Shown here: positions 27,989 through 33,445 of the stretch, one piece after another
Layout: the number at the start of each line of letters is the position of its first letter
How positions within the stretch are numbered: position 1 is the first letter of the stretch
DNA from: Alphaproteobacteria bacterium
GTDB lineage: Bacteria > Pseudomonadota > Alphaproteobacteria > Reyranellales > Reyranellaceae
Direction of reading: 5' to 3'
Length of the DNA: 33,445 bases
Assembly: GCA_016870115.1 (NCBI GenBank)
Contig: VGCH01000031.1
Coordinates: 1-33,445, forward strand
The notes under the pieces: model-generated
Databases searched by the model: none
Seen by the model: only the letters and a program-made list of their open reading frames with translations
What the model was told of the DNA's origin: nothing
Program-made: the position numbers and the translations under genes

Positions 27989-28146
27989 TTGACAATCCGA
28001 TCCACGGTCGTCAGTTTTCGCGCAAAGAATTGCTGCTCCCGAAGGGGGCGGCGGCGGTTGGACGGTCAACGTCTGGCGCAACAGGGGCGGGGCGACAGAG
28101 CTTCAAAGGGCGACGTTGTCCGCCGTGGCTTCACGGAGGAATAATC
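27989..28146 (+). promoter_or_regulatory. Leader and possible promoter of TRAP operon
   Basis: The 162-bp gap before dctP starts with TTGACA at 27989-27994, a perfect -35 box, but the hexamer 17 bp later is only CAGTTT. A strong ribosome site, GGAGG, lies seven bases before the dctP ATG. No terminator is seen after the amidohydrolase gene, so readthrough from that operon is possible. Confidence 0.25.
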
Positions 28147-29196
28147 ATGCGAGCATTGTCAAAGCTTACAGGGGTGGCGGTTGCCGCCGCCGTCGCGCTC
28201 ACCGCAACGGTCGCGACAGCGCAGGATCGCAGGGTCCGCATCCAGATGCAGTCGAACTTCGCGTCCACGCTCGCGCTGCTTGGGCCGAACGCGAAGTACA
28301 CCGTCGATCAGGCCAACCGGCTGTCGAACGGCACTCTCGATATGCGGTTTTTCGAGCCGGGCGCACTGGTGCCGGCGAGCCAGGCCTTCGACGCGGTGTC
28401 GTCGGGCGCGCTCGACGCCGCGTGGGCGACGCCTGGGTTCTGGACCGGCAAGGACATCGCCTTCGCGGTGTTCGCGACGGTGCCGTTCGGCCCGGGTCTT
28501 GGCGAGTACCTCGCCTGGATGAAGGAAGGCGGCGGCGAGAAGCTCATGCAGGCTCTCTACGCCAAGTACAACATCCACTCGGTCATGTGCCATCTGATCC
28601 CGCCGGAGGCGTCCGGCTGGTTCCGCAAGGAGATCAAGACGCTCGACGACCTGAAGGGCCTGAAGATGCGCTTCTTCGGGTTGGGCGCCAACGTCATGCA
28701 GAACCTGGGCGTTTCGACCCAGCTGCTGCAGGCCGGCGAAATCTTCCAGGCGCTGCAGCTCGGCACGATCGACGCGACCGAGTTCTCGATGCCGGTGATG
28801 GATCTCAGCCTCGGCTTCCACCAGGTGGCCAAGTTCTACTACTTCCCCGGCTGGCACCAGCAGGCGACGGTCGGTGACTTGATCATCAACAAGGCCAAGT
28901 GGGACTCGCTGTCGGCGCACCAGAAGGCCGCGATCGAGGCGTCGTGCGACCAGACCGTGCTCAAGGGCATGAGTGTGGGTGAGGCTGTCCAGCCGGCGGC
29001 GCTCAAGGAGATCGAGAGCAAGGGCGTGAAGCTCATGACCTGGGGGCCTGAGTTCCTGCAGGCCTTCGAACGCGAATGGAAGAAGGTCGCGGAGGAGCAG
29101 GCGCAGAAGAGCCCCGAGTTCAAGAAGGCTTGGGAGTCGCTAAGCGCTTTCCGGGAGACCTACTCGATCTGGCGCGAGCGCGGCTACCTCAAGTAA
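28147..29196 (+). CDS. dctP: TRAP transporter substrate-binding protein
   Basis: A 349-residue periplasmic binding protein of the DctP family, the receptor of a sodium-driven TRAP carboxylate importer. Signal peptide 1-25 (VAVAAAVALTATVATA, cleavage before QDRRV). Family motifs: FFEPGALVPASQAFDAVSSG, LDDLKGLKMRFFG with the conserved arginine that holds the substrate carboxylate, and LQLGTIDATEFSMP. It is closer to the long-chain or mannitol/chloroaromatic type than to C4-dicarboxylate DctP. The ATG at 28147 has GGAGG; the open frame upstream from 28030 lacks a signal sequence. It is the only binding protein for two QM pairs that follow. Confidence 0.93.
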   Translation: MRALSKLTGVAVAAAVALTATVATAQDRRVRIQMQSNFASTLALLGPNAKYTVDQANRLSNGTLDMRFFEPGALVPASQAFDAVSSGALDAAWATPGFWTGKDIAFAVFATVPFGPGLGEYLAWMKEGGGEKLMQALYAKYNIHSVMCHLIPPEASGWFRKEIKTLDDLKGLKMRFFGLGANVMQNLGVSTQLLQAGEIFQALQLGTIDATEFSMPVMDLSLGFHQVAKFYYFPGWHQQATVGDLIINKAKWDSLSAHQKAAIEASCDQTVLKGMSVGEAVQPAALKEIESKGVKLMTWGPEFLQAFEREWKKVAEEQAQKSPEFKKAWESLSAFRETYSIWRERGYLK

Positions 29197-29212
29197 CCGC
29201 GGACTGAGACGG

Positions 29213-29237
29213 ACGGCCGCCCCGGTGGGGCGGCCGT
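29213..29237 (+). terminator. Strong hairpin between dctP and dctQ
   Basis: Perfect 11-bp arms, ACGGCCGCCCC (29213-29223) and GGGGCGGCCGT (29227-29237), with a GGT loop. No T-run follows. It probably attenuates transcription or stabilises the upstream mRNA so that dctP is made in excess over the membrane subunits, as is common for binding-protein transporters. Confidence 0.5.
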
Positions 29238-29257
29238 TGCCTTGTGGGGGACGGGAC

Positions 29258-29818
29258 ATGCAGGGTTTGTTGGGAGTAAGCGACGTCATCGATCGTGCGC
29301 TGGCGTGGATCGCGCAACTCTTCGGGTGGCTGTTTGTCGCGCTGGTCGCGGTGATCTGCTGGGACGTGATCACCCGCAAGGTTGGGTTCCAGATCCCCGG
29401 ATTCGGCTCGACACCGATCCAGGAGCTTGAGTGGCACCTGCACGGTCTGCTGTTCATGTTCTGGCTGGGCTATGCCTATGTACGCAACGTGCATGTGCGC
29501 ATCGACGTCTTCATCTCGAACAAGACGCCGGTACAGCAAGCCAAGCTCGAGATTTTCGGATTGCTGGTCTTCGCTATCCCCTATTGCGCCCTCGCGACGT
29601 ACTACGCGTGGGAGTTCGCAAAGATTTCGTTCCTGCAAAACGAGCGCTCGGACGCCCCCAATGGGCTCGCCTATCGCTGGATTATCAAGTCGTGCCTGGT
29701 CGCTGGCCTTCTGCTGCTGGATGCGGCCGTTGCTTCCGTCCTGTTCCGCAAGATCGTGATGGTGTTCGGTCCGCCTGAGCTGGCGAAGCGTGCCGCCAGT
29801 CCCGCGGCGAGCCACTGA
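29258..29818 (+). CDS. dctQ: TRAP transporter small membrane subunit (first)
   Basis: A 186-residue DctQ-type protein with four membrane helices, partner of the large DctM permease. The family motif is visible: RKVGFQIPGFGSTPIQELEW (around 40-59) followed by HLHGLLFMFWLGYAYV, with RIDVF after it. The ATG at 29258 has GGGG upstream; an earlier in-frame start at 29225 lies in the hairpin region. The dctM gene begins 12 bp after its stop. It is paralogous to the dctQ at 31218 (shared RKxGFQxPGxGST and QELEWHL). Confidence 0.9.
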   Translation: MQGLLGVSDVIDRALAWIAQLFGWLFVALVAVICWDVITRKVGFQIPGFGSTPIQELEWHLHGLLFMFWLGYAYVRNVHVRIDVFISNKTPVQQAKLEIFGLLVFAIPYCALATYYAWEFAKISFLQNERSDAPNGLAYRWIIKSCLVAGLLLLDAAVASVLFRKIVMVFGPPELAKRAASPAASH

Positions 29819-29830
29819 GAGGAGCGGATC

Positions 29831-31213
29831 ATGTACGAATGGATTGGTGATCACCTCTCGGTGCTCATGTTTCTCGTGCTCACGTTCATCATGTTCGTGG
29901 GCTACCCGGTGGCGTTCGTGCTGGGCGGCGTCGCGCTGGCGTTCGGCGCGCTCGGCATCGCCTTCGACGTCTTCCGACCCGCGCAGTTCGGCAGCCTGAT
30001 CCCGCGTATCTGGGGGCAGGCGGTTCAGAACCAGGTCCTGATCGCGGTGCCCATGTTCGTATTCATGGGTACGATCCTCGAGAAATCCGGCATCGCGGAC
30101 GAGCTTCTGAAAGCGCTGCAGGTGCTCACCAAGCGCATTCCCGGCGGGTTGGCCATGTCGGTCACCCTGATGGGCACGATCATGGCGGCGACCACCGGCA
30201 TCGTCGGTGCGTCCGTAATCATGCTGACGCTGATCGCGCTGCCGACCATGCTGGCCGCCGGCTATTCCAAGGAATTGTCGGTCGGCACCATCGCCTCGGC
30301 GGGCACGCTGGGCATCCTCATCCCGCCCTCGATCATGTTGGTGATCATGGGCGACCTGATGACCATCTCGGTTGGCACGCTGTTCACCGCCGCGATCCTG
30401 CCGGGCCTGGTGATGGCGGGCGTGTACCTCGTCTACATCTGCGTCCTGGCGTATTTCCGGCCCGATCTCGCGCCGCCCCTCGCCGCGGCTGCCACGCCGA
30501 CGGAGTCGGGCGATTTCACGCGGATGATCCTGCGTTCGTTCCTGCCGCCGGCGTTCCTGATCTTCGTCGTCCTGGGGTCGATCTTCGGCGGCTGGGCCAC
30601 CCCCACGGAGGCGGGCGGAACCGGCTGCGCCGGCGCGCTTCTGCTGGCCTGGTGGAACAAGCGCCTCAACATGAAGATGATGCGCGAGGTGATCGAGAGC
30701 TCCGCGCTCACCAACGCGCTGGTGTTCTTCATCATCTTCGGCGCCACGCTCTTCTCGTTCGTCTTCCGCGCGCTGGGCGGCGACGATCTGGTGGCGGAGC
30801 TCCTCAAGGCGGCCGGCATCGACACCGGATGGGAAATCCTCATCTTCGTGATGGTGCTCGTGTTCATCATGGGCTTCTTCTTCGACTGGCTGGAGATCTG
30901 CCTGATCGTGCTGCCGATCTTCGCGCCGATCCTGGGCAAGGTCGACTTCGCGCCGCATATCGCGTCCAACAAGGAGTTCATGATCTGGTTCGTCTCGATC
31001 GTCGCGGTGAACCTGCAAACGGCGTTCCTGACACCACCCTTCGGGTTCGCGCTTTTCTACATGAAGGCGACAGTGCCACCTTCGATAACGATGCAGCACA
31101 TCTATCGCGGCATCATTCCGTTCGTGGCGCTGCAGCTGGTGGCGCTGGCGATCTGCATCATCTTCCCGGAAATCGTGCTCTGGACGCCGCGGTACTTCGG
31201 CTTCCTCGACTGA
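29831..31213 (+). CDS. dctM: TRAP transporter large permease subunit (first, intact)
   Basis: A 460-residue DctM-type permease that moves the substrate with sodium. Seen: GYPVAFVLGGVALAFGALG (24-42), VPMFVFMGTILEKSGIAD, the conserved hairpin GTLGILIPPSIMLVIMGD, GGWATPTEAGGTGCAGA, a cytoplasmic amphipathic stretch (WWNKRLNMKMMREVIESS), a helix LTNALVFFIIFGATLFSFVF, and LTPPFGFALFYMK near the end. All expected helices are present. AGGAG lies before the ATG. The following dctQ starts four bases after the stop. It is the better candidate for the working permease of DctP. Confidence 0.92.
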   Translation: MYEWIGDHLSVLMFLVLTFIMFVGYPVAFVLGGVALAFGALGIAFDVFRPAQFGSLIPRIWGQAVQNQVLIAVPMFVFMGTILEKSGIADELLKALQVLTKRIPGGLAMSVTLMGTIMAATTGIVGASVIMLTLIALPTMLAAGYSKELSVGTIASAGTLGILIPPSIMLVIMGDLMTISVGTLFTAAILPGLVMAGVYLVYICVLAYFRPDLAPPLAAAATPTESGDFTRMILRSFLPPAFLIFVVLGSIFGGWATPTEAGGTGCAGALLLAWWNKRLNMKMMREVIESSALTNALVFFIIFGATLFSFVFRALGGDDLVAELLKAAGIDTGWEILIFVMVLVFIMGFFFDWLEICLIVLPIFAPILGKVDFAPHIASNKEFMIWFVSIVAVNLQTAFLTPPFGFALFYMKATVPPSITMQHIYRGIIPFVALQLVALAICIIFPEIVLWTPRYFGFLD

Positions 31214-31217
31214 CGCG

Positions 31218-31811
31218 ATGACGCCGCGAGAGACCGTCCCGGCGGACGCACTGATACGCGTCGCCGGGGCGATCGAGCGCGCGCTCGCCCGGTTCGCCGA
31301 GGCGTCGGGCTGGCTGATGGTCGTGCTGATGCTTGTCATCTGCTTCGACGTCGTCAGCCGCAAGCTCGGCTTCCAGATGCCGGGCCTGGGCTCCACCCGT
31401 CTGCAGGAACTCGAATGGCACCTGAGCACGGTGCTGTTCACGATGTGGCTTGGCCACTGCTACATCCTGAACTCCCACCCGCGGGTGGACACGCTCACGG
31501 CCCACCGGCCGCTCGCGACGCGCGCGCGCGTCGAGATCGCGGGGTGCCTGGCCTTCGCCTTGCCCTATGTCGGCGTGGTCGCCTGGTACGGGCTGGGCTT
31601 CGCGGTCTCGTCGTGGCGGACAGGCGAAGGCTCGGAGGCGGTGGTCGGGCTGCCGCAACGCTGGATCATCAAGTCGCTGTTCATCGTTGGACTGTGGCTC
31701 CTGGCGGCGGCGGTGGTCGCGGTGACCCTTCGCCTGCTCGCCTATCTGCTGGGGCGCGTTCCGGCGGAGACCGCCGATCTCAACATCGAACGCCGGGTCG
31801 ATCCGACATGA
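31218..31811 (+). CDS. dctQ: TRAP transporter small membrane subunit (second)
   Basis: A 197-residue DctQ-type protein with four membrane helices. The motif reads RKLGFQMPGLGSTRLQELEW followed by HLSTVLFTMWLGHCYI, then NSHPRVD where the first copy has NVHVRID. It is clearly paralogous to the first dctQ but diverged, and its N-terminus is about ten residues longer. The ATG at 31218 lies four bases after the dctM stop, so it is in the same operon. A GC-alternating stretch separates it from the second dctM. Confidence 0.88.
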   Translation: MTPRETVPADALIRVAGAIERALARFAEASGWLMVVLMLVICFDVVSRKLGFQMPGLGSTRLQELEWHLSTVLFTMWLGHCYILNSHPRVDTLTAHRPLATRARVEIAGCLAFALPYVGVVAWYGLGFAVSSWRTGEGSEAVVGLPQRWIIKSLFIVGLWLLAAAVVAVTLRLLAYLLGRVPAETADLNIERRVDPT

Positions 31812-31851
31812 GGGCGGGGAACGGGCACGCGCGCGCGCGGCGGAGGCCGGC

Positions 31852-33126
31852 GTGATCGCCTGGTTTGCCGACAACCTTGCTCTGATCATGTTCGTGACGA
31901 TGTTCGTCGTGATCTTCTGCGGCTATCCGGTGGCCTTCGTGCTGGGCGGCACCGGTCTCGCCTTCGCCCTGTTCGCTTGGGCGTTGGGCGACTTCCCGCT
32001 GATCAAGCTCTCCAACATCCTGCTGCGCATGTGGGGCGGCGTGGCGGTCGATCCCGTGCTGGTCTCGTTGCCCATGTTCATCTTCATGGGCGCGATTCTC
32101 GAGCGATCAGGTGTGGCGAAAGACATGCTCGATGCGTCGCAGGTGATGCTGCGCCGCATGCCCGGCGGGTTGGCGATCGCCGTCATGGTGATGGGCACGA
32201 TCCTGGCGGCGCCGATCGGGGTCGTTGGTGCGTCGGTCGTCATGCTCTCGCTGATCTCGCTGCCACCGCTGCTCAAGGCCGGCTATGACAAGCGGCTGTC
32301 GATCGGCACGATCGGTTCCGCCGGGACGCTCGGCATCCTCATTCCGCCTTCGATCATGCTGGTCGTGATGGCCGAGATGCTGAACACCTCGGCGGGTGCC
32401 CTGTTCGCGGCGGCGACGATCCCGGGGTTCGTGCTCTCGGGCCTCTATCTCCTCTACATCTGGGGCGTGGCGCTGGTGCGCCCGGACCTGGCGCCCAAGT
32501 TGCCGCCCGAGCACGGGCCGCAGACCTCGCGCGAGACGCTGATCGTCGTGTCCCGCGGCATGCTTCCCATGACGGTGCTGATGGTCGTGGTACTCGGGTC
32601 GATCTTCGCCGGTTGGGCGACCGCCACCGAGAGCGCCGGCGTGGGTTGCCTCGGCGCGACCGGCTTCTCGATGGTTTTCCGCGAGCTGGGCGGCGACGAT
32701 CTCATGCTCAGCATGCTCTACAAGCTCGGCATCGACACGCCATGGGAGATGATGGCGTTCGTGATGGTCCTGATCTTCCTTCTCGGGTTTCCGTTCGAGT
32801 GGATCGAAATCTGCCTGATCGTGCTGCCGATCTTCGGGCCGATCCTGATGAAGATGGATTTCTCCAGCCACATCGGCGACATGGTGGGCTTCATGCCGTG
32901 GTTCGCCACGCTGGTGGCGGTGAACCTCCAGACCTCGTTCATGTCGCCGCCCTTTGGCGCCACGCTCTTCTACATGAAGGGGACAGTGCCGGCGGACTGC
33001 TCGATGACCGATGTCTATCGCGGCACGTATCCGTTCCTCGTCCTGCAGGTGATCGGCCTCGCGCTCTGCCTGGCCTTTCCCGAGTTGAGCCTCTGGCTGC
33101 CGCGAATCTCCGGCATGCTTGACTAG
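31852..33126 (+). CDS. dctM: TRAP transporter large permease subunit (second, internal deletion)
   Basis: A 424-residue DctM-type permease paralogous to the first dctM, with GYPVAFVLGGTGLAFALFAW, LPMFIFMGAILERSGVAKD, GTLGILIPPSIMLVVMAEM and MSPPFGATLFYMK all conserved. Compared with the first copy, 36 residues are missing in frame: GWATATESAGVGCLGA runs straight into TGFSMVFRELGGDD, without the cytoplasmic amphipathic helix and most of the following membrane helix. An odd number of helices is removed, so the C-terminal half would face the wrong way unless the fold adapts. Either it is non-functional, or the sequence is collapsed here. The start is GTG with GGAGG before it. The TAG stop lies in the CTAG end of a repeat. 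Confidence 0.85.
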   Translation: MIAWFADNLALIMFVTMFVVIFCGYPVAFVLGGTGLAFALFAWALGDFPLIKLSNILLRMWGGVAVDPVLVSLPMFIFMGAILERSGVAKDMLDASQVMLRRMPGGLAIAVMVMGTILAAPIGVVGASVVMLSLISLPPLLKAGYDKRLSIGTIGSAGTLGILIPPSIMLVVMAEMLNTSAGALFAAATIPGFVLSGLYLLYIWGVALVRPDLAPKLPPEHGPQTSRETLIVVSRGMLPMTVLMVVVLGSIFAGWATATESAGVGCLGATGFSMVFRELGGDDLMLSMLYKLGIDTPWEMMAFVMVLIFLLGFPFEWIEICLIVLPIFGPILMKMDFSSHIGDMVGFMPWFATLVAVNLQTSFMSPPFGATLFYMKGTVPADCSMTDVYRGTYPFLVLQVIGLALCLAFPELSLWLPRISGMLD

Positions 33127-33250
33127 AGCGGAATGGGAATAGATGGAACCGCATGCGGTTCCATCTATTCCCATTCGCGCGCCCGATCGGTGTGTGTTTC
33201 AGGAGGCACTATGAGTTCAGCTGGTCCCAGCTGAACTCATAGTGCTCTAG
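33123..33250. repeat. CTAG-bounded palindromic repeat, unit A
   Basis: Bounded by CTAG at 33123-33126 (holding the dctM stop) and at 33247-33250. It contains a perfect 46-bp palindrome, 33131-33176, beginning GAATGGGAATAGATGGAACC with GCATGC at its centre, and a second hairpin with 19-bp arms, 33206-33224 and 33227-33245 (GCACTATGAGTTCAGCTGG, 2-nt centre). The AGATGGAACCGC core is shared with the copy at 19212-19338. The first palindrome may end dct transcription. Confidence 0.75.
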
Positions 33251-33320
33251 AGCGGAATGGGATCGGTGTGTTGTGCAGGAGGCACCACGGGTTCTGAGTC
33301 CGGCTGAACTCTTTGTGCTC
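33247..33320. repeat. Tandem, shortened repeat unit B
   Basis: Starts CTAGAGCGGAATGGGA exactly as unit A, then jumps to TCGGTGTGTTGTGCAGGAGG, so the segment holding the 46-bp palindrome is missing. The second hairpin is degenerate (GCACCACGGGTTCTGAG against CTGAACTCTTTGTGC), and the terminal CTAG has become CTCC. It separates unit A from the minus-strand gene end at 33328. Confidence 0.65.
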
Positions 33321-33327
33321 CAATCCG

Positions 33328-33445
33328 TCAAAGCATCGCGCCGCCGGCGCGCAGCCTCTCGCGCAACGCGGCGGGATCGATCGCCGGCGCCGGCAGGTTG
33401 CCGGCGGCGACCAGGGCCGCGGCGATGCCCACGGCATGGCTCATA
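33328..33445 (-). CDS. 3' end of a probable FAD-dependent oxidoreductase
   Basis: Only the last 38 codons and the stop are in the window, running off the right edge. The peptide MSHAVGIAAALVAAG, then PAIDPAALRERLRAGGAML, resembles the C-terminus of FAD-dependent oxidoreductases of the PF12831 type, where the end reads roughly G-AAALAA-gv-p-d-d-a-LqarLraqGa-L. The call rests on this short tail and codon use only. It converges on the TRAP operon, with the repeats in between. An ATG is visible at 33444, but the similarity to a C-terminus implies that the frame continues upstream. Confidence 0.45.
   Translation of the reverse strand, partial: MSHAVGIAAALVAAGNLPAPAIDPAALRERLRAGGAML

Follow-up and report, generated by a model that had tools for sequence, protein, structure and literature searches.

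A 36-codon in-frame deletion in dctM2 of an alphaproteobacterial TRAP operon, probably a recent loss-of-function allele

The second of two large permease subunit genes (dctM2) in a TRAP operon lacks 36 internal codons, and we consider the gap to be, on balance, a recent loss-of-function deletion in a second permease that is probably redundant. The operon lies at the end of the window, that is, the whole stretch of DNA analysed (33,445 nucleotides), which comprises the whole of contig C31. The gene order on the + strand, taken from the open reading frame list and profile searches, is dctP-dctQ1-dctM1-dctQ2-dctM2, and the features referred to below are:

28147..29196, + strand: dctP, the solute-binding protein of the TRAP operon (PF03480, 142.4 bits; NF037995 TRAP_S1, 66 bits against a cut-off of 50), with its start codon picked by eye inside the longer open reading frame 28030-29196
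29225..29818, + strand: dctQ1, small permease subunit (PF04290, 52.3 bits); a later in-frame start is possible
29831..31213, + strand: dctM1, intact large permease subunit, 460 aa (PF06808, 227.9 bits, in a single stretch)
31218..31811, + strand: dctQ2, second small permease subunit (PF04290, 40.2 bits)
31852..33126, + strand: dctM2, the other large permease subunit, 424 aa, shortened internally by 36 residues (PF06808, 166 bits, split over two stretches)
32623..32685, + strand: what remains of TM8 (its first part), running directly into the final part of TM9a; about residues 258-278 of DctM2, drawn by the model as a single helix at low confidence
32647..32661, + strand: deletion junction TGC CTC GGC GCG ACC, with GGCGC at 32653-32657 (up to GGCGCGA at 32653-32659) as the single remaining copy of a short repeat found on both sides of the 108 bp in most of the close orthologues
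33105..33445, no strand: end of the contig, overlapping the start of contig C21 by 341 bp with 4 mismatches (contig-end comparison)

These genes are a conserved TRAP uptake operon. dctM2 has the dctQ and dctP neighbours expected of a DctM (the TRAP large permease), and the M1-Q2-M2 order was found in nine of the eleven loci L048-L058, the exceptions being L056 and L057. The corresponding proteins of eight of these loci (L048-L055) are 83-89 % identical to DctM1 and, over shared columns, 84-86 % identical to DctM2. Within the stretches fetched, a dctP lies upstream in eight of the nine loci that share the gene order, and a more distant locus (L066) carries both an M1 relative and dctP upstream of its Q2-M2 pair. 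Positions 28147-33126 of the window hold a single dctP followed by two dctQM pairs; in such an operon, one binding protein may serve two permeases.

The earlier note had described the two DctM proteins as co-linear, with 36 residues absent from the second, and alignment confirmed both points: the sole gap between them falls in DctM2, is exactly 36 codons long and is placed by the aligner after the residues GC. The dctM2 frame is open from the GTG at 31852 through the stop ending at 33126, and the codons at the junction are TGC (32647-32649), CTC (32650-32652), GGC (32653-32655), GCG (32656-32658) and ACC (32659-32661); because of the repeat, the exact position of the cut may shift by a few bases. 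The PF06808 score of DctM2 stands well above the curated cut-off of 23.8 bits. The match is not continuous through TM7-TM9, leaving profile positions 255-306 unmatched in the search of the host's own genome; all seven intact orthologues tested were matched in one stretch. With TIGR00786 (dctM, NCBIfam; cut-off 268.45), DctM2 scores 220.2 bits and DctM1 285.9, and the seven intact M2 orthologues tested all fall below the cut-off too (248.6-267.7), so that the cut-off does not discriminate here and the shortfall of DctM2 was dropped as evidence.

The sequence at the junction is consistent with one deletion event between short direct repeats, which is the origin that had been proposed for the loss. 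Among 13 of the 40 DctM2 orthologues described below, all close, a distance of exactly 108 bp separates the two edges in every case; identical bases stand in register there over 5-7 bp in eight and over 2-4 bp in the other five, and of the runs that also agree with the junction sequence in the window, the longest is GGCGCGA, in L029. By expectation, microhomology of at least 5 bp would accompany 0.4-0.8 % of the 108-bp deletions that are possible in these 13 frames. The intact neighbour dctM1 carries the GGCGC pair as well. Two copies of GGCGC(GA), spaced 108 bp apart, would have bounded a deletion that took out 36 codons in frame, the ancestral repeat in dctM2 being deduced from the orthologues and the mechanism presumably being slippage or repeat-mediated joining. 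Deletions at microhomology (short direct repeats) are a known kind of event in bacteria, and the dctM2 junction, with one repeat copy of 5-7 bp left behind, resembles them with nothing unusual about it.

A gap of this kind in a single contig might also be an artefact, the consensus having been joined across the repeat, or a minority variant in a mixture of strains, with most cells carrying an intact dctM2. We regard this as possible but rather unlikely. The first 135 bp of C31 match the last 135 bp of contig C34 with 1 mismatch, giving the contig order C34-C31-C21; both ends of C31 therefore overlap other contigs inexactly, which suggests mixed strains in the sample and is what a polymorphic sample would be expected to give, and the junction lies less than 800 bp from one such end; these mismatched overlaps add weight to the assembly doubt already raised in the earlier note. 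Against this, the host's own genome holds no second high-identity copy of M2 (the next best match is 52-59 % identical and is DctM1), and the missing block was not found elsewhere in the assembly, where its best match, at 60 %, is again DctM1. Moreover, repeats of 5-7 bp are far too short to confuse a short-read assembler, and the loss is exactly in frame and sits at a plausible deletion repeat.

If the deletion is taken as real, it removes a block that relatives retain, as had been supposed. All 40 distinct DctM2 orthologues, drawn from genome contigs and relatives, have the 36-residue block without a gap. The set is defined as open reading frames of at least 400 aa that score higher to M2 than to M1 and above 300 bits, sequences that agree in their last 400 residues entering as one, and L001-L003 (the window itself) removed; a frameshifted locus (L085), a 216-aa piece (L087) and distant matches such as L088-L095 fall outside it. 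None of the 40 has the same deletion, and within the sequences searched the gap occurs in this genome alone. A wider set of 35 rows, which overlaps the 40 and includes DctM1 proteins and three distant relatives, has 36 residues in the region in 32 rows and 49 in three.

Genome-wide searches gave the same picture. When 146 genomes (own included; E ≤ 1e-50; 12 candidates scored where a genome has many) were searched with the short DctM2, 73 had no match, and among the matches listed, none of which, the own genome aside, comes from the host's genus, one unbroken over residues 1-424 occurred only in the own genome, intact orthologues being split into two matches. Some distant matches extend up to about 40 residues beyond the junction; the four such proteins examined (G126, G128, G131 and G132) each have exactly 36 residues there. 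A 62-aa peptide spanning the junction, searched against 385 genomes of the class (own included; E ≤ 1e-12), was matched in both halves only in the own genome, and its two other matches cover residues 21-62 and 22-62, that is, the right side alone.

These searches bear on whether the segment is an optional element, naturally absent from some DctM families, such that nothing was lost here. No support for a DctM family naturally without the segment was found in the sequences searched, and next to no probability attaches to this explanation: the block is retained in all 40 orthologues, all 35 wider rows and all four distant proteins; the solved structures 7qha and 9pym align through it with DctM1; and other DctM genes in the host's own genome run through Pfam positions 255-306 or match in overlapping pieces, so that only DctM2 leaves those positions unmatched, apart from a fragment at the edge of C34 that covers positions 307-358 only. 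A natural DctM subfamily lacking the segment was accordingly rejected within the sequences searched (orthologues, wider rows, junction-peptide and own-genome searches).

The position of the loss can be read from SiaM of Photobacterium profundum (7qha_B), a solved elevator with scaffold and transport parts. PMC9971032 describes an M subunit of 12 TM segments, N-out and C-out, with TM7-TM9 in the scaffold and arm II following TM9a, and a pairing of SiaM E237 with SiaQ R32; PMC10942642 places R292, at the start of arm II, facing the periplasm. E237 is kept in DctM2 as E260, and by the alignment of DctM1 with 7qha_B the lost part corresponds to about SiaM 244-280, residues that have no counterpart in DctM2. 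In the model of an intact orthologue (L049), TM8 spans 258-275 and TM9a 281-314, and the block is 267-302 by alignment numbering. From alignment and models together, the lost part comprises the half of TM8 on the cytoplasmic side, the cytoplasmic loop between TM8 and TM9, and two thirds of TM9a counted from its start, and not, as the earlier note had it, an amphipathic cytoplasmic helix plus most of a helix. DctM2 thus departs from the 12-TM inverted-repeat layout of scaffold and transport domains in that TM8 and TM9a are truncated and joined. Compared with the intact DctM (PF06808/TIGR00786) of Reyranella-type genomes, it keeps all invariant residues outside the gap and differs in lacking the 36 residues that span parts of these two helices. 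A literature search found no paper on a DctM or TRAP transporter deletion affecting a transmembrane helix.

The loss was also thought to change helix parity. Such a change is possible and is not required, since no single whole helix is removed: both half-helix stumps lie on the periplasmic side, so that a change of parity would need the two to merge into a single crossing helix, and if they instead form a short re-entrant turn, the rest of DctM2 would keep its original orientation. The AlphaFold2 model of the short protein has a helix at 261-278 and pLDDT below 50 at the join (254-266), the other stretches below 50 being 61-73 and 373-376; the intact orthologue model has no comparable stretch. 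Superposed on SiaM, the short model matches over 387 residues (Z 35.0, 3.3 Å) and the intact control over 422 (Z 39.2, 2.9 Å), and the fold outside the cut is thus not predicted to collapse. AlphaFold2-type models judge deletions poorly, and we give the superposition of this model on SiaM little weight as evidence of function. The best 19-residue hydropathy (Kyte-Doolittle) is 1.03 for the residual piece, against 1.15 for the intact TM8 and 1.91 for the intact TM9a of L049; ten peaks elsewhere in DctM2, from a listing of peaks above 1.4 only, reach 1.41-2.42.

We therefore weighed whether the protein could be a shortened yet working permease, in which the half-helices make one crossing or a re-entrant turn and which transports or has taken on a changed role, and judge this quite improbable. 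The open frame, the little other decay and the 109 invariant residues retained outside the gap are compatible with it, as are a residual piece (258-278) of helix length that forms one helix in the model and a residual hydropathy close to that of intact TM8. However, the block is kept by every one of the 40 orthologues and by the neighbouring DctM1, two invariant residues went with it, the residual hydropathy is below that of TM9a and of all ten listed peaks, and confidence at the join is low (pLDDT below 50). A stronger form, in which DctM2 is a working minimal-scaffold TRAP permease whose elevator remains mobile, perhaps with help from DctQ2 or DctM1, is very improbable; were the short DctM2 to work, it would define the amount of scaffold that a TRAP elevator requires.

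The preferred reading, a recent loss of function, follows from what the cut removes. With half of TM8, the loop and part of TM9a lost from the scaffold domain, the scaffold, which supports the elevator and keeps the DctQ subunit in place, is most likely broken, and this would make DctM2 a recent loss-of-function allele; the intact DctP-DctQ1-DctM1 set probably covers for it.

The rest of dctM2 has barely decayed, which would place the event as young or still segregating in the population. At the 111 columns invariant in the 35 other rows, DctM2 keeps 109; the other two (A and F) lie in the gap and none is substituted. At the columns conserved to at least 90 %, 165 of 170 are kept, four lie in the gap and one differs. 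Rates were compared in ten-row codon sets (the own gene and nine loci, L048-L055 and L058; gap-free columns only), with pairwise dS near 0.6. Relative-rate tests against the outgroup L058 showed no acceleration of M2 (p ≥ 0.75 in eight of eight comparisons), and its dN/dS to the nine relatives is 0.155-0.219; that of the intact L049 to the other eight is 0.173-0.221, save 0.063 with its close sister L048. By rough arithmetic, had constraint been absent over more than a few per cent of the gene's branch, changes would be expected at some of the 109 invariant residues. That these residues are unchanged, and that no rate acceleration was detected, indicates that the loss is recent or not fixed; the deletion may be young, segregating, still tolerated, or not real.

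Two comparisons with M1 may hint at slight relaxation of M2, or at no more than a different gene. The own M2 carries 11 private substitutions at 307 positions invariant in the nine relatives and the own M1 five at 312, the other ingroup rows having 0-2 in M2 and 1-9 in M1 (most of those rows have nearer sisters). In relative-rate tests two of the eight relatives have a faster M1 than the own genome (p 0.01 and 0.02), and M2 is without such a signal. An old pseudogene was rejected: there are no in-frame stops, no rate acceleration and no changes at the invariant residues outside the gap. Nor is the open frame odd for a dead gene, as had been suggested; one in three deletions leaves the frame intact, and little other decay is expected of a young loss.

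The dctM2 deletion is an ordinary event that is worth an annotation note, and this verdict does not depend on the earlier arguments from helix parity or from the open frame. Should the deletion be real, it would be a clean case of an in-frame loss allele of young age, one that automatic annotation could accept as an intact permease; the operon encodes another, intact permease, which may make dctM2 redundant.

Some further observations concern the surroundings of dctM2 and its relatives. The intergenic region downstream of the gene (33123-33320 of the window) is a palindromic repeat, with a perfect 23-nt inverted repeat at 33131-33176, a 19-nt inverted repeat at 33206-33245 and direct repeats; the genome has diverged copies of 74-140 bp, 80-90 % identical, at 11 further sites, and shorter matches as well. 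The reading frame of a DctM2 relative from Bradyrhizobium valentinum (L085, 4970-6370) shifts right after the GWATP motif, a few codons away from where the dctM2 deletion lies; the relative retains the beginning of the segment in the shifted frame, and the frameshift may reflect an error in sequencing. Contig C34 has at its start (L105, C34:1-1500, around 125-280) a short piece of DctM that contains an in-frame TAG, possibly the remnant of a separate TRAP permease gene.
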